From NCBI GenBank assembly GCA_019828595.1, contig JAHQRK010000011.1, forward strand, positions 1,178,001 through 1,242,000: a stretch of DNA of 64,000 nt, given 5' to 3'. Made by a program: the position numbers and the translations under genes. This stretch comes from Aphanomyces cochlioides. Taxonomy: Eukaryota > Oomycota > Saprolegniomycetes > Saprolegniales > Verrucalvaceae. Positions 1 to 13,693 of the stretch are shown one piece after another (positions within the stretch are counted from its first letter, which is position 1; every line of letters begins with the position of its first letter). The notes under the pieces are model-generated. The model ran no database searches, was not told the origin of the DNA, and worked only from the letters and a program-made list of their open reading frames with translations.

Positions 1-1192
1 TCATCCATGGAATCGACCGAATGCGCATCGGTGCTGCGTTCGCGACCGGCATTTCCGCAGCCATGGCGTCCATCGGGCGGAATTTTTTCTGGAACTCGGG
101 GAGAAGCAAGCGCAGATCCTTGACTACTATCTGGGACGATGGTTCATGCGTGTGAATGTGTGGAAAGAGCGTGATCGTCATGGGCGTCAACTTGGCTTCA
201 ATGTCTACACAAGATCGTCAACTGTTTGCCCATGACGTCAGGACGGACTGGATTTGACTCCTCCAGTCATAAATTCGACAGTTGGGTCGTCCGGTGGAGC
301 GGAGTCGTCGTCGGACGCTTGAGCCATCGGATGCAGGACGATCGTTTTGGATTTCCTCGACTCCTTTGTCTCGACACGTTGCAGTCGAGTAGTCCGTCGC
401 TCCGACAGACTGGCTTTGGCACTGGCACCAAAGTTGACAAAGAACGCATTGAGCTTGAAATGCATGGATTGGAAGAAAGAGACGTAGTCATGCAGTTTGT
501 CGGATTGAACAGACTACGACAGCGACAGATGAGCAACGAACGAACTAGAACGACGAGGAGACCAAGTAACCGAGGTCAAAGACGAGGCGATGGACGTCGG
601 CTTGGTTCAACGGCGGATCGGCGTCGGGATCCCATTTCTCCCATTTGCACCACCGCCCTCGCATGAGCATCTTGACGGCGTTTTGCGTCAAGTTGGCCGT
701 CCGACCTTCCATTAAGATCGTGCCAAGTCCCAAGTACAAATGCGAGAGCTACAAGGACAAGCGAGCAGTCAAGAGCATGTTGTCCATGCGCGTCGTGGCG
801 TACCATGGACGGCGTGACGTGTGATTCGCCCTGGGATACAAGTGGCCACCTACCGCGACGCCACTGCAGTCGAGCTTTGACACGGGGAGACCTTACCACT
901 GCGCTAGACATAGCTCAATCGACGGAAGCTGGATGAGGAAGTTGATCTGGACAGTCGACATGGCCATGAATTCGAGCAGCAGCTTGATGTCGCTCGATTT
1001 GGCCATCGGGCTCTTGACGCACGGCGATGAAAAATGTTCGAGGTCGGCGACTTGGACGGCCATCGCTTCTTCTTCCTTCTTCCATGAGTCGAGGGACCGC
1101 AGCGCCGCGACAAAGTGGATCATCGACTTGCGAAGAGGACAGCCAGCAGTCACGACTGTCGTCGCGTGTCGCCGCAAGTTGGTCGTACTCAT
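1..1192 (-). CDS. Unrecognised protein, 5' part of a gene running off the left edge
   Basis: Five exons can be joined in phase: 1192-897, 849-804, 748-563, 513-249 and 204 to beyond position 1, with GT-AG introns of 44-55 nt. The start is the ATG at 1192, which lies 34 bp downstream of the stop of the next gene on the same strand. About 330 residues are visible. They mix hydrophobic, beta-rich stretches (for example around TVQINFLIQLPSIEL) with an acidic linker after LHPMAQASDDD. No zinc-binding, kinase, transmembrane or catalytic motif is visible. The style recalls N-terminal parts of very long proteins such as bridge-like lipid-transfer proteins, but that is only an impression. The exon structure is well supported by phase and amino-acid texture; the function is unknown. 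Confidence 0.6.
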
Positions 1193-1226
1193 GTCTAAAG
1201 ATAGTTTGACACATTATGATTAAACG

Positions 1227-1916
1227 CTATACCAAGCTGCCGCCTTTGGGGCTCACGCTTCGATGGAGAACGACGTCGATCTCGTCTTGGGACATGCCTG
1301 TTTGCAGCAATTCCTGTCGTGCTTTCGCCTGCGCGACTTTGAGTTGCAGCTCGGCTTCTTGCGCTTTCGCCAGTAAGATTCGTCGGTTGATCTGTGCTTC
1401 TTCTTCTTGCCGTGCCAACTTTTGATCGACACGGGCATTCTTTTGTTCCTCCAGAGCCATTCGGCGGCGTTCCATGTCCCATCGGTGCTCCATATCGCGA
1501 CGTCTCAACTCTCGTTCGTCTTTGTCGATCCACATCTTTGGTTTCTTGTCGCACTTGTCGCCTTTGTGCATTTTCGCCGGCCGCGTTGGCATGATCAAAT
1601 CCGGCACGTATTCCGTCACAAACTTGCATTTCGTCAAGTGTCGGCGCATGTCTGGAATGCGCGACACGATAGGGGTCGGTTCAGGCGCCTCTAGGTCGTT
1701 GCCAGGCACAAATCGCATCTGGAATGCATTGCGACACCCTTTGCATTCAACGTACCAATAATTGTGGTACTTGCCAGCGTCTTTGAGCTTTGTAAAATGC
1801 TGCCAAATGTCTTCGTTCTTCGGTGGACCACGGCTTCGCTTCGGAGCAATACCAGACTCCTTGTCGGCCTTGGGATCGTGAGCTTTAGCGCCGTCTGGCT
1901 TGACCACTTCCGCCAT
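1227..1916 (-). CDS. BED-type zinc finger protein with shared C-terminal coiled-coil module
   Basis: A single exon encodes 229 residues. Residues about 30-100 look like a BED zinc finger: aromatic residues (IWQHF, YWYVEC), a CKGC pair and a distal RRHLTKC, the usual C-x2-C then H-x(3-5)-C/H pattern. BED domains bind DNA and are typical of hAT transposases and proteins derived from them. No hAT catalytic or dimerisation domain follows. Instead residues about 140-217 form a charged helix with EHRW, MERRR, EAELQLKV and AKARQELL, then a short GMSQDEID end. The same tail closes the three genes to the right. A basic Lys/Arg linker lies between the two parts. A domesticated transcription factor is the likely role, by inference. 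The start codon is 43 bp from a TCCGGATAATCCGG element at 1959-1972. Confidence 0.8.
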   Translation of the reverse strand: MAEVVKPDGAKAHDPKADKESGIAPKRSRGPPKNEDIWQHFTKLKDAGKYHNYWYVECKGCRNAFQMRFVPGNDLEAPEPTPIVSRIPDMRRHLTKCKFVTEYVPDLIMPTRPAKMHKGDKCDKKPKMWIDKDERELRRRDMEHRWDMERRRMALEEQKNARVDQKLARQEEEAQINRRILLAKAQEAELQLKVAQAKARQELLQTGMSQDEIDVVLHRSVSPKGGSLV

Positions 1917-1958
1917 GACCGCCTTGATGGAGAATGTGCGCTGGATACGCGCAAGTCA

Positions 1959-1972
1959 TCCGGATAATCCGG
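1959..1972. promoter_or_regulatory. TCCGGATA promoter element, double
   Basis: TCCGGATAATCCGG lies 43 bp upstream of the start of the BED gene and about 105 bp upstream of the gene starting at 2077 on the other strand. It is one of seven loci with this motif just before a start codon. The regulatory role is inferred from recurrence only. Confidence 0.45.
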
Positions 1973-2076
1973 TTCTTGAGAGAAATTCTTCAATTTTGAA
2001 ATATTCAAAAAAAAATAAAAAAATTCCCCATTATTTTATTTTGAATTTATTTAATTTTGTTTATTTTTGAAAGTGG

Positions 2077-3479
2077 ATGAATTCCCATGGCGTCCTTCAC
2101 GACGATGGGCCTCTGCCAGGCCATGTAGGCGACGACAGAAATAACGCCAGACCGCCGCTACCATCAAGTATTTCCACTGAAAAAGACTACTTTGAAATGG
2201 CCAGGTCGTTTGGGCTTGTCAAGGAATGGGGCGGAGCGTACAATGCAGCTCAAACGTCGTTTGCGACGGACAACGAACTCTCGGATCGAATTGCAGGGTT
2301 TGCGAACATGGTTGGGTTCCACGTCAAGTCAAGCACCACAGGCGGGACCACGCGAGTGTACACGTGCAAGTCGTCACCCGAATGTCCCTTTTTGATCACT
2401 ACCAACATTAGCAATTCAACAGGCATCACGCGCATCTCACGCCGACTGCATTGCTTTCGACACAACCATCCTCTCGGGAATGCAGTCTCTTCATTTGCGT
2501 GGAGTGATTCTCGAGACACTTTGCCAAAACGAAAAGCGTTTGCTGCTTTCCATGAGGAACCATCCCAAGATGATGCACCTGCACCGGCGCCTCCGCAAGT
2601 GTGTACCGAAGTTGAGTATTTTGCCGTGGCTCGTGCAATTGGTCTTTGCAGACGGACTGGCCCGTCAACCGTGCGCCCCGTCAACAAAGTATTCGAGTCA
2701 AAGGAGGATTTACTCGAGCGAATTCACTTCCTCGCCTGTCGAGTTGGCTTTCAGATCAAGCATCGCGACGGCACGTTCCGTTATGTTTGCAAGTCTGTTG
2801 TCGACTGCCCATTTTCAATCTCCATCAATGTCCGTCCATCAGGCACGGCGAAGTTATCCGAGAAGCTGTGCTTTTTCCCCCACAACCATCCCTTTGGAGT
2901 CCTTGACCAGCCATCCACGGGCAAAAACACAACACTCAACTCCGCTATCGTAAGTTGGAATGCTGATACTCTCTCTGACTTGAGATGTAGATTGCGTACA
3001 GCATTGCCGCTTCTGGCATGGACTGGGCTAAAGCCACGCACATGGATTTCCGCAATCATTGCATTGCTACATTTGGCGTTCCCATCGGTCCAACGCGGTC
3101 AACTACAGTTCGTCGCGAGCTTGAGGAACCTGGTGTTGAGCGCCATATTGAGAGATACAAAAAGCTGGACGATGCAATGCGCACAGCCTTGGAACGCATC
3201 CGCTCGCATGCAGCCGCGAATCCACATCCTCCCGACGCCAAAGATGTCCACGCAATTCGGCGTGAAATGCACCATCGGTGGGAAATCGATCGTCGTCGTC
3301 TTGCCTTGGACGAGCAATGCCATGCTCGTGCTGAAAACGAGGCTCGCATTCAACACCGCGTGCTCCTTGCCAAGCTCCACGAAGCTGAAGTGAATTTCAA
3401 AGTCACGAAGGCGAAAGCCCGGCACGAATTGCTCGCCGTTGGCTTGTCTCCTGCTGACATCGATGCTGCATTAGCTTGA
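2077..3479 (+). CDS. Protein with two tandem FAR1/WRKY-GCM1-like zinc domains and the shared coiled-coil tail
   Basis: Exons 2077-2949 and 2991-3479 join across a 41-nt intron to give 453 residues. Two zinc domains of the WRKY-GCM1/FAR1 class are visible. The first (about residues 40-137) has C-x5-C in CKSSPEC and a distal FRHNHPLG. The second (about 180-283) has CKSVVDC and FPHNHPFG. Each is preceded by a similar YF-x-(M/V)AR stretch, so the domain was duplicated inside the gene. After the intron comes a helical region shared with the gene at 4616 (an FGV-x-(I/L)G block), then the C-terminal module with HHRW, DRRRL, EAEVNFKV, AKARHELL and GLSPADID. FAR1-like heads are typical of MULE transposases, but no DDE domain is present. 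DNA binding is likely; any regulatory role is inference. Confidence 0.8.
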
Positions 3480-3824
3480 TTCTATTTAACAGTCAAAGAA
3501 CCACGAAGTTTCATGTAGAGTCATCTCCTTTCATCGTTGCATTCATCTTGCAAAGACTTCACATCGTTGGTGTCAGGAAGTCCTGGCCAAAACGGTAAAA
3601 ATTTGTATGCCAATGTACATTCAGAGCTCTATCACAGTCGAGTAATCTCCACAGTCCATTCATTCATTCACTGTCTCGCTTGGCAATGCCCATGGCGTCA
3701 TGTTTGCGTTCACCGAGTCTCCAAATCACTGAAGAACATATCGCGGAAAATTATGTCGATCGGTGGATTCGAACCGAGGGCCAATTGCAAAATGACTGGT
3801 AGATTAATTTGGAACTGAAACTCA
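3480..3824. other. Intergenic region before U6
   Basis: No convincing gene. GGATTCGAACC at 3765-3775 is the reverse complement of a Pol III B-box consensus. The flanking bases do not fold as a tRNA T arm, so no tRNA is called. The segment probably holds the U6 promoter. Confidence 0.4.
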
Positions 3825-3847
3825 GGAACCCTTCGGGGTCATCCGTA

Positions 3848-3878
<31 letters not shown>

Positions 3879-3926
3879 GGCCCCTGCGCAAGGATGACAC
3901 GCATAAATCGAGAAGTATCGCACTTT
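3825..3926 (+). ncRNA. U6: U6 spliceosomal snRNA
   Basis: A 5' hairpin (ACCC-TTC-GGGGT) is followed by the highly conserved U6 core: AATTGGAACGATACAGAGAA (the ACAGAGA box that pairs with the 5' splice site), then GATTAGCATGG and the AGC/CATGGCCCCTGCGCAAGGATGACACGC region that forms the internal stem-loop, read here as separate blocks. The gene ends in a run of seven T at 3924-3930, a Pol III terminator. U6 forms the catalytic core of the spliceosome with U2, in keeping with the many short introns in this window. The exact 5' end is uncertain by a few bases. The sequence match is essentially unmistakable. Confidence 0.95.
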
Positions 3927-3930
3927 TTTT
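3924..3930 (+). terminator. Pol III T-run terminator of U6
   Basis: Seven consecutive T directly after the U6 3' end, the standard RNA polymerase III stop signal. Confidence 0.85.
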
Positions 3931-4580
3931 GCATCCCGCGCCGCTTGGACAGCTCCAGTCTCCTTTTCGCTCACGACTTGCGCCTCCCCGCTGTTTGTTC
4001 TGCAATGGAAGCTCTTCCTTCTTTGTGGTTGAGTTATCCGCTGCGTTGTTTTGTTCTTGTGAGGAAGACAATGAGTCTACTTTCGTGTGCTTTAGATGCT
4101 TTAGATAGCGGAATCACCAAAGTGAGATGGTTGGCAAGAGCGCTCGAGTTTGAACGAGAGGCTCCTGTGTTGGGCAGGACACAGGCGGCGTTCAGTTGAC
4201 AATGGGCTGTTTCCACGACGACTGGAGTTGGAGAACAAGTGTCTTGGGTCACTGAGGCAGCTACGGTATCCCCCTCGCAAGTCAAGACGGGTGAGAAGGA
4301 GTAGAACCTCCAGCATTATCTGCGTTGCGGTTTGTGCTTGTCTTTCGAGGTTACGCAGAGCTTACTATAGGTAAGAACGCAATGGAAAACTGGAGAAACA
4401 ATGCACACGAGTCCAACGTCGCGACCGCGTCGAATATGAAGCATTCTTATTATGCTGGCAGATGACTAGAGCAAGCTCTTCGACCGCTTGCTTTCCTAGC
4501 TCTTGAGATAGCGAGGTAAGTTGATGGTCATGACAATATGCGCTCGTCGGTGACTGCTGCTTCGTTGTGACAGAAAGAGT
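3931..4580. other. Intergenic region after U6
   Basis: No recognised gene. A 64-codon reading frame on the + strand (ATG at 4008, stop near 4199) is open but has no motif and no convincing splice continuation. It is left uncalled. Confidence 0.4.
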
Positions 4581-4590
4581 TCCGGATAAT
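4581..4590. promoter_or_regulatory. TCCGGATAAT promoter element
   Basis: TCCGGATAAT ends 25 bp before the ATG at 4616. It overlaps the in-frame upstream ATG at 4589, which argues for the start at 4616. Confidence 0.4.
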
Positions 4591-4615
4591 GTGCCATATT
4601 GCAAAACCAAGAAGT

Positions 4616-5540
4616 ATGCATCAAGGTGGCGGCGGAAGCGACTACGACTCTCTCTGGACCATGGCGGAATCGCTTGGCCTGATGGTACGTACGCCGTCGG
4701 GATTTGAACCGCCGTCGACAATGTTCGACAACAAGGGCGATTTCGCAGACAGTGTCATGCAGCTCGCAGTGAAACATCGCTTTCAACTGTGGCAGAAACA
4801 CACCAACATGCACTTGTGCTATCGATGCAAGTCGTATCCCGACTGCCCGTTCACCATCCGCGGATATGTTCAGAAGTCAGGACAGATCAAAGTCACAAGC
4901 TCCGATTTCCGTCACAATCATCCCTTGGGCGTCCAGGCGCTCCCTGCCAAGTCGCGGAATACCATGCTCTGTACAAAGACGGTATAGTGCTGTCTCTCTT
5001 ACCAAGGGATGCTAAGCATGCCGATAGCTTGCACAGAGCCTTCTTGTGGCTGACGTGGACTACGTGAACGCAACCGTTGCCCAGCTCCAAGCCCATTTCA
5101 AATCTGCCTTTGGCGTTGACCTTGGCTCCAGTCGCATCTACGGCATCAGGAAGCTGCTAGAGAGCGGAACGATGGGCAACGACGTCCACAAATTCCAAAA
5201 AATCGCCAAGGCGCTTTCTGTAAAGCCCAAAATGGACTCTGACAACGATGACGACGATGACAGCGACGAGTGGCGGCCGACGCCAACCGATGCTGAAGTC
5301 GAACTGGAAAGCCTGAGACGCCAAGACCAAGAGCACCAGTGGGAAATGGAGCGGCGGCGACTCGTCATGGAAGAGGCGACAAATGCCAGACTGGAAGAAG
5401 AAAGTCGGGCCAAGCGGCGACTCGCTGAGCTCGAAGCTGAGACTGCCGAGATGCACGTCAGAGTCACCACGGCCAAAGCCAGGCATGACTTGCTCCAGAC
5501 TGGCATGGCGCGCGAAGATGTCGAGCTATTGCTTACGTAA
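4616..5540 (+). CDS. FAR1/WRKY-GCM1-like zinc domain protein with the shared coiled-coil tail
   Basis: Exons 4616-4981 and 5028-5540 join over a 46-nt intron to give 292 residues. An in-frame ATG at 4589 would add nine residues but overlaps the promoter motif. Residues about 10-105 hold one zinc domain with CKSYPDC (C-x5-C) and a distal FRHNHPLG, closely matching the two copies in the gene at 2077. After the intron, a helical block contains FGVDLGSSR, like the matching block in that gene. The intron lies at the same place relative to both blocks, so the two genes are paralogues. An acidic Asp-rich linker (DNDDDDDSDE) separates it from the C-terminal module with EHQW, MERRRL and AKARHDLL, then GMAREDVE. 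Probably a DNA-binding regulator derived from a MULE head; no catalytic domain. Confidence 0.8.
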
Positions 5541-5702
5541 CGAGTGTTTTAAGTGTTTTCTCTGGGTATGTTCCATGGCGATGGCGGGAAGTAGCGGCAG
5601 GAAAGCGCCACTCAGCGCTGGAAAAGTGACATGACACTCAAATGAGTAGACAACATGGATTTTCTGCGCAATACTGCTAAATAACGAATAGAAGCACCGA
5701 CG

Positions 5703-6458
5703 TCACTGCAACAGCGCGTCGATTTCGCTCGGTGGAATACCAGCTCGCTCGAGCTCTTGCTTGGCTTTTGCACGTGCAACTTTGAGCTGCAGTTCGGCTT
5801 CTGTAGCTTTGGCGAGGAGGATGCGTTCGTTAAGCTGCGCTTCCCGTTCAATACGTTCGTTCGTTTGTTTCTCGATGGCTAGTCGTTCTCTTTCCATTTG
5901 CCATCGATGCTCTAAGTCTCGTTGCTGGAGAATACTTTGGTCGACTTCAACACCTCGTTGTACATCTTTTGGGACATCTTGAGACTTTGGCGCGCGTTTC
6001 TTGTATCCACGAATGAAAATCGCAACACTTGAGCTTTCTGAGAGCGGTGTCATACCTCGTTCAAGCGTTGCACCTGGTGTTTGCACCTCAAGCGACGGAT
6101 GCCGATGGATGAATCGACGATACCAGCCTTCGCCGAGCGTCGCGTTTGGTTTCAGCTGCTTGATCAAGATATTGGCACGCTCAATGATTTCTTTTCTCGT
6201 GACGGGTGTGCCTGAGTTTTGCATCTCGAGCATCCACGCCAGCAGCTCTTGCTCATAATTGAGCGCCAAACTTGGTTTTGATCCGCGCTTCTTCTTCTCA
6301 ATCACAATACCGCGCTTGCGCTCTCGGACTCGCTGCATCAACGTGCGGTATGGAATGCCTGTTTCTTTACTCACAGAGATACCACGCTCTTTGTTCTCGA
6401 CGATTCTGCTCACGGCATAGTGGAGCTCTGCTTCCGAGTACAAACCGCGTCGACGCAT
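5703..6458 (-). CDS. Psq/CENP-B helix-turn-helix protein with the shared coiled-coil tail
   Basis: A single exon gives 251 residues from the ATG at 6458. Upstream codons stay open for six more residues but contain no ATG. The N-terminus (about 5-45) is a Pipsqueak-type HTH (YSEAELHYAVSRI, then GIPYRTLMQRV). Residues about 65-120 fit a CENP-B/Tc5-type HTH (YEQELLAWMLEMQ, GWYRRFIHRHP). This pair is typical of pogo/Tigger transposases (Tc1/mariner superfamily) and of proteins domesticated from them, such as CENP-B. The DDE catalytic domain is absent. Residues about 174-251 are the shared module with EHRW, MERERL, EAELQLKV and AKAKQELE. The gene is divergent from the one at 6802 across a CCAAT-rich promoter. 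DNA binding is likely; the target is unknown. Confidence 0.8.
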   Translation of the reverse strand: MRRRGLYSEAELHYAVSRIVENKERGISVSKETGIPYRTLMQRVRERKRGIVIEKKKRGSKPSLALNYEQELLAWMLEMQNSGTPVTRKEIIERANILIKQLKPNATLGEGWYRRFIHRHPSLEVQTPGATLERGMTPLSESSSVAIFIRGYKKRAPKSQDVPKDVQRGVEVDQSILQQRDLEHRWQMERERLAIEKQTNERIEREAQLNERILLAKATEAELQLKVARAKAKQELERAGIPPSEIDALLQ

Positions 6459-6516
6459 GTCCTCGTCGTTGAACACTGCGTCAAATAAAAAATGAAATTA
6501 TGATATTTATTCTGAG

Positions 6517-6762
6517 CCAATCAAAATACTTCATTAAAATCTACATTATTTTGATTGGATTTAATGTTTATTTTCCACCAATAAGATTTTAATATTGTGG
6601 TGATTTGTGCAATCGAGGAGGTGGAGTTCTAGCCAATCATGAAGTTTGTTGAGTCAATTACATGAAACTTGATTGGCTAATACTAAAACTATTGGCCAAT
6701 CACTTTTTATTATTTCAAGTTTTCTGGATTTTAATTGGCTAATATAATATTTATTATCCAAT
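6517..6762. promoter_or_regulatory. Cluster of CCAAT boxes in a divergent promoter
   Basis: Nine CCAAT pentamers on either strand (at 6517, 6554, 6579, 6633, 6672, 6691, 6696, 6734 and 6758) lie in the AT-rich gap between the genes at 6458 (-) and 6802 (+). Many read (A/G)CCAATCA. CCAAT boxes bind NF-Y in eukaryotes in general; binding here is inferred. Confidence 0.55.
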
Positions 6763-6801
6763 CATATCGGAATAAGTTTTGGATCTGCTCAAAAGAGCAA
6801 G

Positions 6802-9419
6802 ATGAGCGTCGTGACGAGCATGTGGAGCTTGGCCCAAGCCACGCGCGCGGAAGAACGGACGCACAACCTGTTTACACCGCATGTGGAGAACGACATCAAG
6901 AATATTGTCAAGAAGAATATGGCACATCAGTCCCGCGATCTCTCTGGATGGGATTTCGACAAGAAAATTGCTGTCCTCACCGAACTTCAAGACATGATCG
7001 AAGCTCCAAGCTTTAGATTTGCAGATTGGGGCGAACAAGTGCCGGCGAAATTCAAGTCTGTCCCAGTACTGCCGCTTCTTCTTGGCCAGGAAGCCCTCTT
7101 GGATCTTTGGGACTACATCATGGAATTTTGTGATGTAGTGCCTGTTCGGACAGGCGCGCGCAGTTTATTTCTTCGTTTGGCAGGATGCATCTGCCGTCGA
7201 CTGGAATTTACCCACGACGCAGAGCTCAACGGCGTGCCGATTAAAATTGACGTGGCCAGTACGATCTATCTTGCTATTGAGTGCATGAAGCTTTTGTAGT
7301 CGAACAACGCTTCAACGGTCTACTCGAGTCCAGCATGCGCTACTGCGCGCTCAAGTTTTCAAAAAGCCGCATCTTGACACAAGACCATGCTTATTTTGCC
7401 TCACACATCTTCACAGCAGCGTTCTATCGCTATCCATCCGTTGCGGCGCCGCTCATTTTGGACGCCGTTCAAGACGTGACGACTCAAGTGCGCCACAAAT
7501 CCAAGCCAGGAATTGAAACCAAACGAACACACAACCATGAGCACGAGACCATGTGGCTCTTCGTTCCAGGTACACCTCGTTTAATGCTGAGCTCTCCTTG
7601 ACTTTATTTTGTCTAGATGCAGCATCAACATGCTCAGACGACGGCGGGACATCGTCCGATGAGAACCCAGCTTCCAACGACCTCGAGGGATCTTCATCCC
7701 CAAAGTCGCCAAAGTCTCCACAGTTGCCAAAGCAGCATGATAACTCACAGGAACCAAGTCAAACACCGCTCGCAGAGCGCCGCGCACAGGTTCTCGACAA
7801 ATTCCGCGCTTACAAAGCCTCTCGGCTCGTCGAAACCTCTGAAGTAATTCCAATCACGCCGCTCTTACCTGTACAGTCGTCGTCCGATGAGACGCTTGAG
7901 CTCGTCTTTCAAGCGGTTTGTTCTCCTTACCTTTCGCCATCTAATCCTTCCTCTCGTAGAGCCTTCAACTCTCTCAAGAAGACGATGAGGCAAAATTCAT
8001 CGCCGCATGTCCTCAATTGTACGATGAACCGCGCTACCTTCAAGCCACAGTCGTCGAGATATCGCTTGCGCCGTTCCTCGACCGACTACGGGCACCTTCC
8101 AGAGATGCCAACCTCGTTGCAATCTTCGTCTCGACGTTCCTTGAGGACTCGTCGTCGTGGGCGAAAGCTCTCAACCGCGGCACCATGCTGTGGCATTGCA
8201 TTCCTGGCTATTTCGTCTTGGTGCGCGCCTTTGCCGCGATCTTTGCCAAAGTGTGTATGCGCCGCAAGAAACGCGAGACACTCAACAAAGAAGCCGACAT
8301 CGTCGTCGATCCTTGGTTTCCCTACTGGGAATCGCACGAACTCGAACCGATTTACGATGGACTCACAGACGTCCTGAGCCACGGACCGCTCCTCAACGTC
8401 TTTGTCCAAGTACGCAACTTCTTGTGTCTCCCATGGCGCTGACTACTGCTTTCCATGTAGATGATCCTCGAGAGCACCAACATGTACGACCCGCAGAGCG
8501 TCGACTACTCGTTCAACATCCTCCAGAACGTCTTTGAATGCGCCGCGGAAGTCAACGGCCCGAATCATGCGCGGGAAAACGCCGTGCGCGGCCATTTACC
8601 GCTCAGCTTTGACGTTGCGTACTACCTCGAAGCGCTACGGAAAGCATTGACGTCGTCGCATTTCCAAATTATCCTCAAAGTGCTCGCGTTCCTCTACGCC
8701 ACAGCAGGTATATCCATCTACTCTCCATGGGGCCCGTCATAAAGCGACGGCGCGTTGTAGATCTGCTCGAATCGAAGCGGCGACAAAAACTGCTCTCGGG
8801 CGTCATCCTCCATGAATACTTCTTTGAACTCTTCCTCCACTGGAATGAAGAAGTCCGCCGCATGTTCTCCCATCTCCTCGTGTACAAACTTTTCTGCTCC
8901 TCGCGGCTCGACTTGCCGCTCGTCTCGGATCGCGTGCTCCTCGCCACGAGTCCATTCTTTCGACCGTACAATGCGGTGCAGCCCCATGTCTTGCAAGGAC
9001 TCGCGACGTATTTTGCTCCGCCAAAGAGACCATCAGCGCTGTCATCGCTGGACCATTCTACCGCGCTAGAGCGCCTCATCGTCTGGGACACCACGGCGGT
9101 CTTGAAGCAGTCGAACCAGAAGCAAAAGCAGGAGCGGCTCTTCCGCGACAGTCTCTCCGACGACGAACTTATGCTCGATCTCTCTATGACGAGCAAACTC
9201 GATGCGGTGCTCAAAATGATCGCCGACCAGATCAAATTGCACGACTGCACGACGTATTACCCGCGCCATCTTCAAGTCTATGCTCAGCGAGCCATCGCGC
9301 AGTACATTGGTCTCCTCTATGGGTACTACCAAGCGGCATTTGACCATCCATCGACGCCGCCACCCGCGCCCATCTTGGAGTTTAACGTCCAGAACTTCTT
9401 TGGAAATGCAGAGCAGTAG
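6802..9419 (+). CDS. Large conserved-looking protein of unknown function (possible DUF1765-like)
   Basis: Six exons (6802-7258, 7300-7569, 7617-7915, 7960-8409, 8461-8707, 8761-9419) join in phase to 793 residues. The introns are 41-53 nt. The N-terminal third is helical (TELQDMIEAPSF, LDLWDYIMEFCD). A Ser/Pro-rich linker follows in the third exon (SSPKSPKSPQLPKQ). The rest is helical again, with aromatic stretches such as MLWHCIPGYFVLVRAF, FPYWESHELEPIYDG and LHEYFFELFLHWNEEVRRMF. No clear membrane span or catalytic signature is seen. The layout loosely recalls fungal/oomycete DUF1765 proteins, but this is memory of style rather than a motif match. The gene model is strong; the function is unknown. 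Confidence 0.8.
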
Positions 9420-10891: not shown

Positions 10892-13693
10892 TTAGACGCT
10901 GTTGCTGGGCAGCGCCGACCACGACGACAAGTCGCGGACACTCGGTCGATGGTGGACTGGCTCCAGCGCCGAGTCAGAGCCTTGACGCTGAGCATCTCGG
11001 ACGCTTGGGCGACGCTGCATCGACTCATACGGCTCACGTTGCGGAGTCATGTCCGCCTTGAGATGGCCGCTCCCCGTGCGGTAGAGCACGGGGCTAAACG
11101 TCGACGCTGACGCTGTTCTGTACTCTGGCGGACTCAAATGCGACGCGCTGCCCGTTCGAGCCAAGTGCTTCGACTCAGTGTTTCCACCGGCAGCGCCTGG
11201 CGCTCCATGAGGAATCAACCCCTTGAGGTATTCGTCCGCTTGATCAAACAAGCGCTTCTCGTGCGACGTTGCCAAGCAGCACCGGCGGACATATCGCGGA
11301 AGAATCTTGCCGCTCACCTAATGCCGTCCCAAGGTCAGTACCGCCGCCTTTGCGTGGAATTGCTTCATTTACCTTTTCAAAGATGACATCCACGCCTTCC
11401 ATCTTGAGCGTCTTCTTCTCAAGCGCGGCGCCGCGGAGAAAGATCGGACCGTGGCCGATTTCGTACTTGCCGTTGACCGTCATGGCAAGGAGATAGACGC
11501 TCGCGAGCACGTTCGTTGTGATTCCTTTGCGCTTGTCATTCCGCTCCATCATCTTGAGCTCCAGGCCCAGCACGACCTTGTCCACGTATGGATTGCGGTA
11601 GACGGCAAAATCGCGGACGGACGGATTTTCCAAGAGCTGACTCAGTTCATAGACTTCCTTGTCGACGAAGGAATCCCCCACGGGCGCGTCGAGCACTTCA
11701 AAGTCAAAGAGACTTGGCACGATCGCGCCTTGGGGTTTCTCTTTCGGCTTTTTGTCGCCATCCTCTTCCCAGGGATCGACGTCGCTCTGCGCGGCAAAGA
11801 GTTCAATTTCAACTTTCTGAAGCTTGTCGATCGGGATCTCGAGCTTCCCGCAGTGGAGATACGACCCACGGAGACGCAGTTGCTTGACGTGGTGGCGGTA
11901 GAATTCGTTCTCGCCGTCCGGGCTGTCGAAGTCCACAAGCGTCAAGCAGATGGTGTAGAGGAAGAACGACACGAAGTCGGCTTTGTCGAACGTTTTGAGA
12001 ATCCCCGCGCGGAATGTCCGCAGCATGCGCTTCTCTTCATGGCTCACGTGTTGCCCGACGGGAACACCACGGACTCGCGCGTACTCTTTGCGGATCGCGA
12101 CGGAGATTTCGTGCTGCACGGCCGAGAGACGATTCATGGTCATGAACGTCTGGCAGCTCTTGAGCATCGCCAAGTACTTCTCGTCGCTCTCGCTGTTGCC
12201 GGCAAACCACTGCGTGAATGGAAGGTAGCAGAGCGCGATGATGACGATCGAGTACAAGACCATGGACCAGAACATCGTGTCGGCAAGACCCGCCGGACCC
12301 GGATCGATGCCGCTCGACTTGCAGTCGACATAGTAACTCTGGTAGAGGAAGAAGATCGTCCAGACGGCCGTCATGGCGGACGCGATGCCCGTCATATCCC
12401 AAGCGCCGACGCCGATGCGTTTGCACATGGTCCGTGCATCGTTGATGAAGGCCGACTTGGATGCTTCGTCCGGTTCCTTGTCGACAAACATTTGGACGAC
12501 GGTGTTGTCATGAAGGAAGACGGAGAACCACTTGATGACGAGCGTGACGCGCGCGAGGAAGACGGCGAGCTCCTCGGCGAGCAAGAAGGGAAGAATGATA
12601 GCGAGCCCGTCAAAGAAGCGCGTGTTCATCTCCTGGAATTCCATCTGCGTCTTGACGAAGGTGAAGAAGACGAAGAGCGTGTAGAGCGTCGCGCCGACGA
12701 CGACAGAGCCAAGCGAGATGGTGCCCGTGACCTCTTTGAACCGCTTGCTCCCGTCGACGTCCGACCGGATGTTGTCGAGAACTGTCATGACCAACTGATG
12801 CAAGATGCGCTTCTTGTGCTCCTTGTCGTCTGTCGAGACCTACAAGATCACCACGTCAGTCGTGAGCATTCCATGAAGAGATGTACCAACTCATCAATGC
12901 GTGGCTGGCGCACTCGGTAGTCCAGACACGCTTCCCATTCAAGGCGCAGGAAGAGTTTGAGCGCTTCGTACTCGAGTTTGAAGGCGGCGCCGTACGTTCG
13001 AAGCTCTGGACGTGGAAGAATGCCGACCAAGACAGCCCAAGCATAAACTGCAGAGCCAAAGCCAACGAGAAGGAAGTACATGAAGAAGATGCTCGCGGCG
13101 AGGACCCAGTTGGCGATCGTGACGAGGAGAGCCAAGCAAGGGCCCGTGACGATGAGGTACAGCTTGCGGCGATGCGTGATGGGTAGCTGAAGAAGCGTAT
13201 GGATGGACAGGTTGCGTAAGAGGTAGTCCGGCGCGTCTTTCCACTTGCGCTGCGAGTGGTTGGCGAGGATTTCCTCGATGGGTTTGTTCAAGACGGCCTC
13301 CCATCCTTCTTCTTCGTCTTCCGAGGAGGAATACCCGTCGTCCATGTCGCCGTCGCCGTCCGATGCCGTTGAAGAACGATATCGCCAGAGATTCTTGAGC
13401 TTGTTGACGCCAGCGACCATATCCTCTTTTGTCGGACTGAGCTTCTTTAGGGTTTCCATCTTGCCGAGGAACTTGCCTTTCATCGTCGGGCTCTCCCCTC
13501 CAGACCGTGGGCTCCGCGTGATGTCGACTTTGATGTGGCTGAAGTCGGTTTTGACCTCCCGGGCCAAATCCCGCGCTGTTTCCTTGACTTCTGCCGCAGT
13601 TTCCGTCACATATCCGTCAACGCGAGCGATGTCCCGGTGCATGTCACGCGAGAGCCGCCTCACGGGCGACTTGGGTTCCTTTGAGTCTGCCAT
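10892..13693 (-). CDS. Large multi-pass membrane protein of unknown function
   Basis: Exons 13693-12887, 12839-11373 and 11317-10892 join to 899 residues over introns of 47 and 55 nt. The start is the MADSKEP ATG; upstream codons stay open but lack an ATG. The first 160 residues are charged and Ser-rich, with an acidic stretch (YSSSEDEEEGW). Hydrophobic segments follow: LYLIVTGPCLALLVTIANWV and a second just after it, then further spans around VVVGATLYTLFVFFTF, LAIILPFLLAEELAVFLARV, GIASAMTAVWTIFFLY and FWSMVLYSIVIIALCYLPF. The C-terminal third is soluble and ends in a Ser/Pro/Arg-rich tail with two RRPSVRD/HRPSVRD repeats, likely phosphorylation sites. I do not recognise the family. A long reading frame on the opposite strand (11451-12920) is an antisense artefact. 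Confidence 0.8.

Follow-up and report, generated by a model that had tools for sequence, protein, structure and literature searches.

Genes of Aphanomyces cochlioides that appear to join a Harbinger accessory-protein tail to DNA-binding heads of other transposase types

A stretch of 64,000 nucleotides from the oomycete Aphanomyces cochlioides, a root-rot water mould (referred to as the window; contig JAHQRK010000011.1, here C3, 2,604,000 bases) carries four adjacent genes, A to D, in which different transposase-type DNA-binding heads are followed by one common C-terminal tail. Judged by sequence comparison, this tail is the module at the C-terminus of the Myb/SANT accessory protein found in two-gene PIF/Harbinger transposons, and as the tail itself is transposon-derived, the proteins would be chimeras of two kinds of transposon part. 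On balance, we consider it probable that A to D belong to a set of single-copy genes that combine the DNA-binding part of another transposase with the Harbinger accessory module, for which we propose a role in nuclease docking. The genes and their parts are as follows.

1227-1916, minus strand: gene A, an open frame of 229 amino acids
1530-1916, minus strand: head of A, a BED-like zinc finger, named from its motif
1230-1514, minus strand: tail module of A, containing a 7-residue insert
2077-3479, plus strand: gene B, 453 amino acids after splicing (intron 2950-2990), made up of two C-type zinc-finger heads, a middle segment and the tail
3246-3476, plus strand: tail module of B, from tail alignment and genome search
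4616-5540, plus strand: gene C, 292 amino acids after splicing (intron 4982-5027), with a Mutator-type DNA-binding head, a middle segment and the tail
5295-5537, plus strand: tail module of C, from tail alignment and genome search
5703-6458, minus strand: gene D, 251 amino acids, with a head made up of a Psq-like helix-turn-helix (HTH) and a CENP-B/Tc5 HTH (PF03221), and the tail
5706-5939, minus strand: tail module of D, from tail alignment, genome search and AlphaFold helices

All four genes, which a preliminary description had placed here, are present and open, B and C once their introns are removed, and the same splice in the A. euteiches protein P0007 supports the intron of C. The common tail of that description was recovered as well: the last ~75 residues of A to D align with 17 invariant columns, and all six tail pairs exceed their shuffles by z-scores of 7.4 to 27.9 (Smith-Waterman; for each pair, 1000 shuffles each of the free, heptad-register and hydrophobic-class kinds). 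Since the pairs beat all three shuffle types, and profile shuffles agree, chance coiled-coil similarity is ruled out, so that the tail withstood the shuffled control which the description had called for. No Pfam family exceeded its curated cut-off in the tail of the window proteins. Below the cut-off, HAUS-augmin3 (0.022), PA26 (0.038) and VIR_N (0.44) touched the tail of C and GA-like (0.082) that of D, while cwf21 (0.028) and RecX_HTH1 (0.078) were weak matches in the tail region of two Harbinger accessory proteins. We put all of these down to composition, as we did the best solved-structure matches of the tail profile, to chains of ribosomal protein S6 (E 0.004 and 0.009). Against solved structures, the accessory protein P0009 gave MEX67 alone (0.8). 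The known domain whose exclusion had been advised, the NAM-associated C-terminal domain of plant proteins (which we take to be PF14303), is a charged helical C-terminus; it is absent from the listed Pfam matches of the window proteins (E ≤ 1) and of the two Harbinger accessory proteins (E ≤ 0.1).

The Harbinger assignment comes from searches of the same genome (76 megabases). The tail of D gave 24 matches at E ≤ 0.1, nine of them strong (E ≤ 3.1e-6): A to D themselves and five further loci, L005, L008, L006, L009 and L010. The remaining 15 (E 0.0087 to 0.098) all lie within, or at most 265 bases downstream of, Myb/SANT-like protein genes on the same strand. With the tail of A, which gave 23 matches, 14 of the 14 beyond the nine close places (E 6e-4 to 0.097) fall within Harbinger accessory genes or a short way downstream of them; L008 and L010, though close places, score in roughly the same range as the Harbinger matches with this query. 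The positions of the tail matches were compared with 40 of 121 accessory matches, the last ten picked for nearness.

These 121 matches, obtained with one accessory protein as genome query (148 of 155 candidates scored), merge to 95 loci. At 37 of them a match to the nuclease family DDE_Tnp_4 (PF13359) lies within 3 kilobases (kb) downstream, convergent in 36 of the 37, and at none upstream. The pairing used 120 of the 121 accessory matches (L084 left out) and all 150 nuclease matches; as the latter were the best 150 of 994 PF13359 candidates, all 150 matching when scored, the 37 paired loci are a lower bound. At L012, both genes lie between exact 15-base inverted repeats, and the nuclease matches PF13359 at 4.8e-34. 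We identify the loci with an accessory gene and a convergent nuclease gene as two-gene PIF/Harbinger elements; the Myb/SANT name of the accessory protein rests on PF13837 below its cut-off (20.2 of 27 bits).

Outside the window, the tail occurs at the following places.

C3, 919-923 kb: L005 and L008, close tail
contig C45: L006, close tail
contig C12: L009, close tail, beside a Harbinger nuclease
contig C1: L010, close tail, beside a Harbinger nuclease
C4:2425200-2427900: L084, an A-like (BED-like) head with a Harbinger-type tail

The set of four in the preliminary description, whose members do share the tail, is therefore part of a larger one, with nine close places in the genome and L084 in addition. 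Eight genes (A to D, L005, L006, L008 and L084) carry the tail on non-Myb heads with no Harbinger nuclease found nearby, and we refer to them as host genes; six of them (A to D, L005 and L008) lie on one contig, in two clusters ~256 kb apart. The product of L008 is P0006 (A. cochlioides AC1031_002789). L009 and L010 are convergent to DDE_4-type nucleases that are ~41% (split over two open reading frames, ORFs) and 45% identical to the L012 nuclease, and are the bridge between the close tails and the Harbinger elements.

A comparison between profiles of seven host tails and four Harbinger tails, three of the latter from one subfamily, gave P 9.9e-10 and a score of 53.3, whereas 60 class-preserving column shuffles reached at most 15.2, 60 free shuffles 18.8 and the reversed profile 13.0. 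Positions common to host and Harbinger tails include R-L-x-[IL]-E, R, [IL]-L, E-A, K-V and E-I-D, together with a G in every alignment row. A search of proteins with an accessory profile had yielded 28 among 7926 candidates (22 from Aphanomyces, two from Phytophthora, one from Sorochytrium and three without organism name). The host-only tail profile, run with filters off on 36 proteins, matched 21 of these 28 at E below 1e-5, among them P0021 of Phytophthora infestans (25.4 bits) and P0030 of Sorochytrium milnesiophthora (21.1 bits); two were weak (0.011 and 0.063) and five unlisted. By these comparisons, the C-terminal module of A to D is homologous to that of the accessory proteins of the same genome, and it is on these, not on plant or animal C-termini, that the homology to Harbinger rests. 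Separately, the A. astaci gene model P0036 combines a match to the accessory profile with PF13359, and is either a mis-joined model or a one-piece Harbinger.

The heads of the eight host genes were named on different grounds: Psq plus CENP-B by Pfam, Mutator-type by Pfam below the cut-off, and BED- or FAR1-like by motifs. More specifically, D matches PF03221 (Tc5/CENP-B HTH) at E 3.7e-11, with a single weak Pfam match for the Psq part of the D-type head, in P0002 (0.082), and C matches PF03108 (Mutator-type) with 21.7 bits, under the curated cut-off of 25. A and B gave no Pfam match at E ≤ 1. The two heads of B are similar to that of C (E 9e-11 and, for the second head, 7e-27); on this resemblance B and C are paralogues, and the Mutator type of B is taken over from C. 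The head names of the preliminary description thus hold well for D and, below the cut-off, for C, while the BED of A is a motif assignment, B is named through C, and B and C are paralogues. At a relaxed E ≤ 10, Pfam returned zf_C2HC_14 alone for A (0.12, chance level) and no match for the heads of B, L005, L008, L009 and L084; a match to Ntox1 in the head of L006 (0.0036, below the cut-off) was dismissed as chance. Judged by eye, the heads of L005 and L006 appear FAR1/Mutator-like, that of L008 BED-like and that of L009 Myb/SANT-like; the head of L010 was not found. The head of L084 matches that of A at E 0.004 in the genome search and at 2e-7 by BLASTP in a tiny set. As a genome query, the head of C recovered only itself, the two heads of B and a single weak match. 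The head of A also resembles genes whose BED-like fingers are paired and whose ORF includes no tail. L085 (C56) and L086 (C30) are BED-like finger genes; two of three BED-type ORFs have the fingers in pairs, and neither a tail nor a transposase was noticed in their frame.

By Pfam, no Myb/SANT match was found in A to D at E ≤ 1, so they do not have the Myb/SANT or MADF head of a Harbinger accessory protein; C is without a transposase domain; and D has the HTH with no DDE part, and so not the combination of HTH and DDE remnant of a CENP-B/pogo-type gene.

The surroundings of the host genes were free of Harbinger nucleases in our searches. Among the best 150 of 994 candidates, no PF13359 match lies within 15 kb of A to D, L005, L006, L008 or L084, and BLASTP with the L012 nuclease found none in the window or at L005, L006, L008 or L084; a convergent DDE_4 nuclease was found at L009 and L010 and at none of the eight. 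Inverted repeats of at least 16 nucleotides enclosing A to D were not found in window positions 1-7400, and the genome yielded no near copies of A (as DNA) or of the tails and heads searched. A Myb/SANT match lies ~10 kb from L009. Downstream of L084 is an ORF whose product resembles an MCM (replication licensing) protein.

D has close relatives in three further species, A. euteiches, A. stellatus and A. astaci; L006 has them in the same three (a fragment in A. astaci), and C has one in A. euteiches. From best matches, we take them as orthologues. D, L006 and C thereby present what would be expected of a domesticated Harbinger-derived gene, with a single copy, an open frame and relatives in other species. 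Relative to A. stellatus and A. astaci, conservation, compared at the protein level only and with linker borders set by hand, is concentrated in head and tail in both lineages for which the parts were compared. D is 81% and 76% identical to its A. stellatus and A. astaci relatives in the head and 72% and 75% in the tail, with 51% and 39% in the linker, and L006 is 85% identical to A. stellatus in the head, 89% in the tail and 45% in the linker. Host-type protein searches recovered eight proteins, all from Aphanomyces and with L008 itself among them; because the second search was limited to the best 7998 candidates, absence outside Aphanomyces is not proven. The modular family of regulators with one tail that had been proposed earlier is borne out in so far as different transposase-type heads share the tail and the D and L006 lineages recur in other Aphanomyces, but the Harbinger origin of the tail itself had not been anticipated.

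A maximum-likelihood tree of 39 tails (81 columns) places L084 together with one Harbinger subfamily (support 83/95) and away from the remaining host tails; these are poorly separated from L009, L010 and the rest. This suggests two recruitments of the tail, with one recruitment remaining compatible. Regarding the route, ten annotated accessory proteins were tried and seven mapped to loci. In P0015 (in L014) and P0016 (in L072), a phase-0 intron lies directly before the tail and exon 2 begins with LERRNAIE or LKQRQEDR; in the alignment used for the tree, these starts lie ~five columns behind and two columns ahead of the position from which the host genes resemble one another (LQQRDLEH in D, LRRRDMEH in A). 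Across 30 places, defined as distinct loci passing the script cut-offs and merged from rows by hand, the tail forms its own ORF, separate from the head, in 19, shares the ORF of the head in 7 and is otherwise split in 4. In the 19 separate tails, the residues ahead of the profile match number at most 2 in 15, 8 in one and 16 in three. As many of the elements have the tail on a separate last exon, it could move onto new heads by exon shuffling, and we propose that a terminal phase-0 tail exon was shuffled onto other genes in this way.

AlphaFold predicts for the accessory protein P0009 a small helical head, a helix at 179-272 (predicted local distance difference test, pLDDT, mostly above 90), a break and a helix at 277-283, and for D two helical DNA-binding units, a helix at 170-238, a break and a helix at 243-250. 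The predicted tail shape is thus similar in both, a long helix followed by a break and a short helix. The best Foldseek match of the accessory model was the Sap1 DNA-binding domain, at E 0.26.

As reported in PMC2836001, members of the superfamily require two proteins encoded by the element, and the accessory protein of the zebrafish Harbinger attaches both to the terminal repeats and to the nuclease, whose nuclear localisation depends on it. The results and discussion of PMC7282668 describe contact between the C-terminal end of the accessory protein and the N-terminal end of the nuclease for the zebrafish Harbinger as well as for Ping, HDP2, NAIF1 and ALP2. Given this published binding, we propose that the tails of A to D dock a Harbinger-type nuclease or a domesticated descendant, as the position and role of the tail in the element would suggest. 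In the proposed mechanism, the accessory tail exon would have been joined by exon shuffling to BED-like, Mutator/FAR1-like or Psq plus CENP-B heads; the long helix and a terminal helical clip would dock the nuclease or a nuclease-bound complex; the docked nuclease could still be active or, like ALP1/HDP1, be a domesticated one that has lost catalysis; and proteins with different DNA targets would bring one shared effector to chromatin, with a regulatory or transposon-silencing outcome. More tentatively, with the chances somewhat below even, the Harbinger accessory exon may serve in Aphanomyces as a portable adaptor that turns unrelated transposase DNA-binding halves into recruiters of one Harbinger-derived nuclease or chromatin complex, giving multi-specificity, split-transposase-like regulation or genome defence through repeated exon capture.

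Several observations weigh against this reading. The tail tree contains four host-Harbinger changes (3 to 4 over bootstraps), only one of which is forced by well-supported branches, and the program warned of long branches. Four of the seven mapped accessory models (P0009, P0010, P0011 and P0019) have no intron before the tail, and that of P0012 lies in the head instead; neither B nor C has its intron at the boundary of the tail, and the heads of both have no further close relative in the genome. There is a Myb/SANT match 4.1 kb from L006. In A. euteiches, all parts are 92-100% identical, with the L006 linker unchanged, so this comparison says little. The predicted template modelling score (pTM) is low at 0.41 for P0009 and 0.29 for D, with alignment depths of 19 and 8, and for this reason we use the local shape only. 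Furthermore, no partner nuclease was pinned down for the tails, and the literature is not uniform: the abstract of PMC7282668 gives the ends of ALP2 reversed (N-terminus to ALP1), in conflict with the paper's own results, the Ping Myb C-terminus bound in one two-hybrid orientation only (PMC7282668), and co-expression of the two Ping proteins in yeast left localisation unchanged (PMC2836001).

With respect to origin, A to D could instead be parts of decaying or active chimeric transposons and not host genes, given that their heads are of transposase type, that the close tails of L009 and L010 adjoin Harbinger nucleases and that L006 has the Myb/SANT match just mentioned. We regard this as highly improbable in view of the open frames, the lack of PF13359 matches near A to D (best 150 of 994 candidates; none by BLASTP in the window), of inverted repeats (at least 16 nucleotides, window 1-7400) and of near copies in the searches above, and the relatives that D, C and L006 have in further Aphanomyces species. 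It is also very unlikely that the tail is an old host module captured by Harbinger elements. The short tail tree leaves the root unfixed and thus gives this direction some room, whereas the tail is found in accessory-type proteins of Aphanomyces, Phytophthora and Sorochytrium, and the host-type proteins recovered (from the best 7998 candidates in the second search) are all from Aphanomyces.

As to function, a credible though less favoured possibility is that the tail is a homo- or heterodimerising helix in accessory and host proteins alike, forming mixed dimers among the chimeras or with accessory proteins, with no nuclease needed. The long helix is predicted with high confidence and four adjacent genes could make mixed pairs, but a period scan of two tails gave no clear heptad signal, the published nuclease binding is assigned to the accessory C-terminus (PMC7282668), and the conserved glycine and E-I-D end would exceed what a zipper needs. 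By analogy with published Harbinger biology, docking seems better motivated than dimerisation. Rather unlikely, in our estimate, is that the chimeras are anti-transposon dominant-negatives, whose docking tail keeps the Harbinger nuclease from its own accessory protein and whose heads matter little. The genome is indeed rich in Harbinger copies, with at least 150 PF13359 matches (best 150 of 994 candidates) and 95 accessory loci; however, the heads of D and L006 are about as conserved between species as their tails, and DNA binding therefore seems constrained too.

Compared with known systems, A to D share with the Harbinger accessory protein (ORF1 of Ping/Pong, Harbinger3_DR) a C-terminal module homologous to that of the same-genome accessory proteins and a similar predicted long helix, and differ from it by a BED-like, Mutator-like or Psq plus CENP-B head instead of Myb/SANT and by having no nuclease found nearby. 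NAIF1, HDP2 and ALP2 (PMC7282668) and insect MADF proteins (PMC9710019) are likewise described as host genes from a Harbinger accessory protein, and in the first three the C-terminus is reported as the nuclease-binding region (PMC7282668); co-domestication of both Harbinger proteins is reported as recurrent in insects (PMC9710019). As described there, these proteins descend from a whole Myb or MADF component (the Myb region of ALP2 being degenerate), whereas the heads of A to D are of other transposase types, in several combinations. FHY3/FAR1, ZBED, CENP-B and Psq factors, as covered in PMC10027918, have transposase-type heads as well, but A to D also have in common a tail that comes from a different superfamily. 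A comparable idea with other domains is seen in metazoan THAP genes that carry Harbinger-associated or DDE_Tnp_4 parts (PMC10027918). For Aphanomyces, PMC5907361 mentions the PIF-Harbinger class in connection with short elements. Within the literature searched, which lies outside subscription journals, no account turned up of a Harbinger accessory tail carried by a non-Myb head. The domestication of Harbinger proteins is known already, as is that of MULE, hAT and pogo DNA-binding domains; both are combined here, with one module of a two-part transposase on several unrelated DNA-binding heads, a module that some of the transposons have as a ready-made exon. It seems that a piece of a transposon has come to serve as a shared adaptor for unrelated DNA-binders, and docking, if true, would explain how a genome builds many DNA-directed regulators with one shared effector.

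Further features of the window were observed in passing. A U6 spliceosomal RNA gene lies between B and C (3827-3929, plus strand; Rfam RF00026, 104 bits). Upstream of D, at 6506-6764, CCAATCA/TGATTGG blocks are repeated in direct and inverted copies, possibly as promoter elements or a small transposon remnant. Finally, two long ORFs (11244-12803, minus strand, and 11451-12920, plus strand) cover largely the same stretch on opposite strands.

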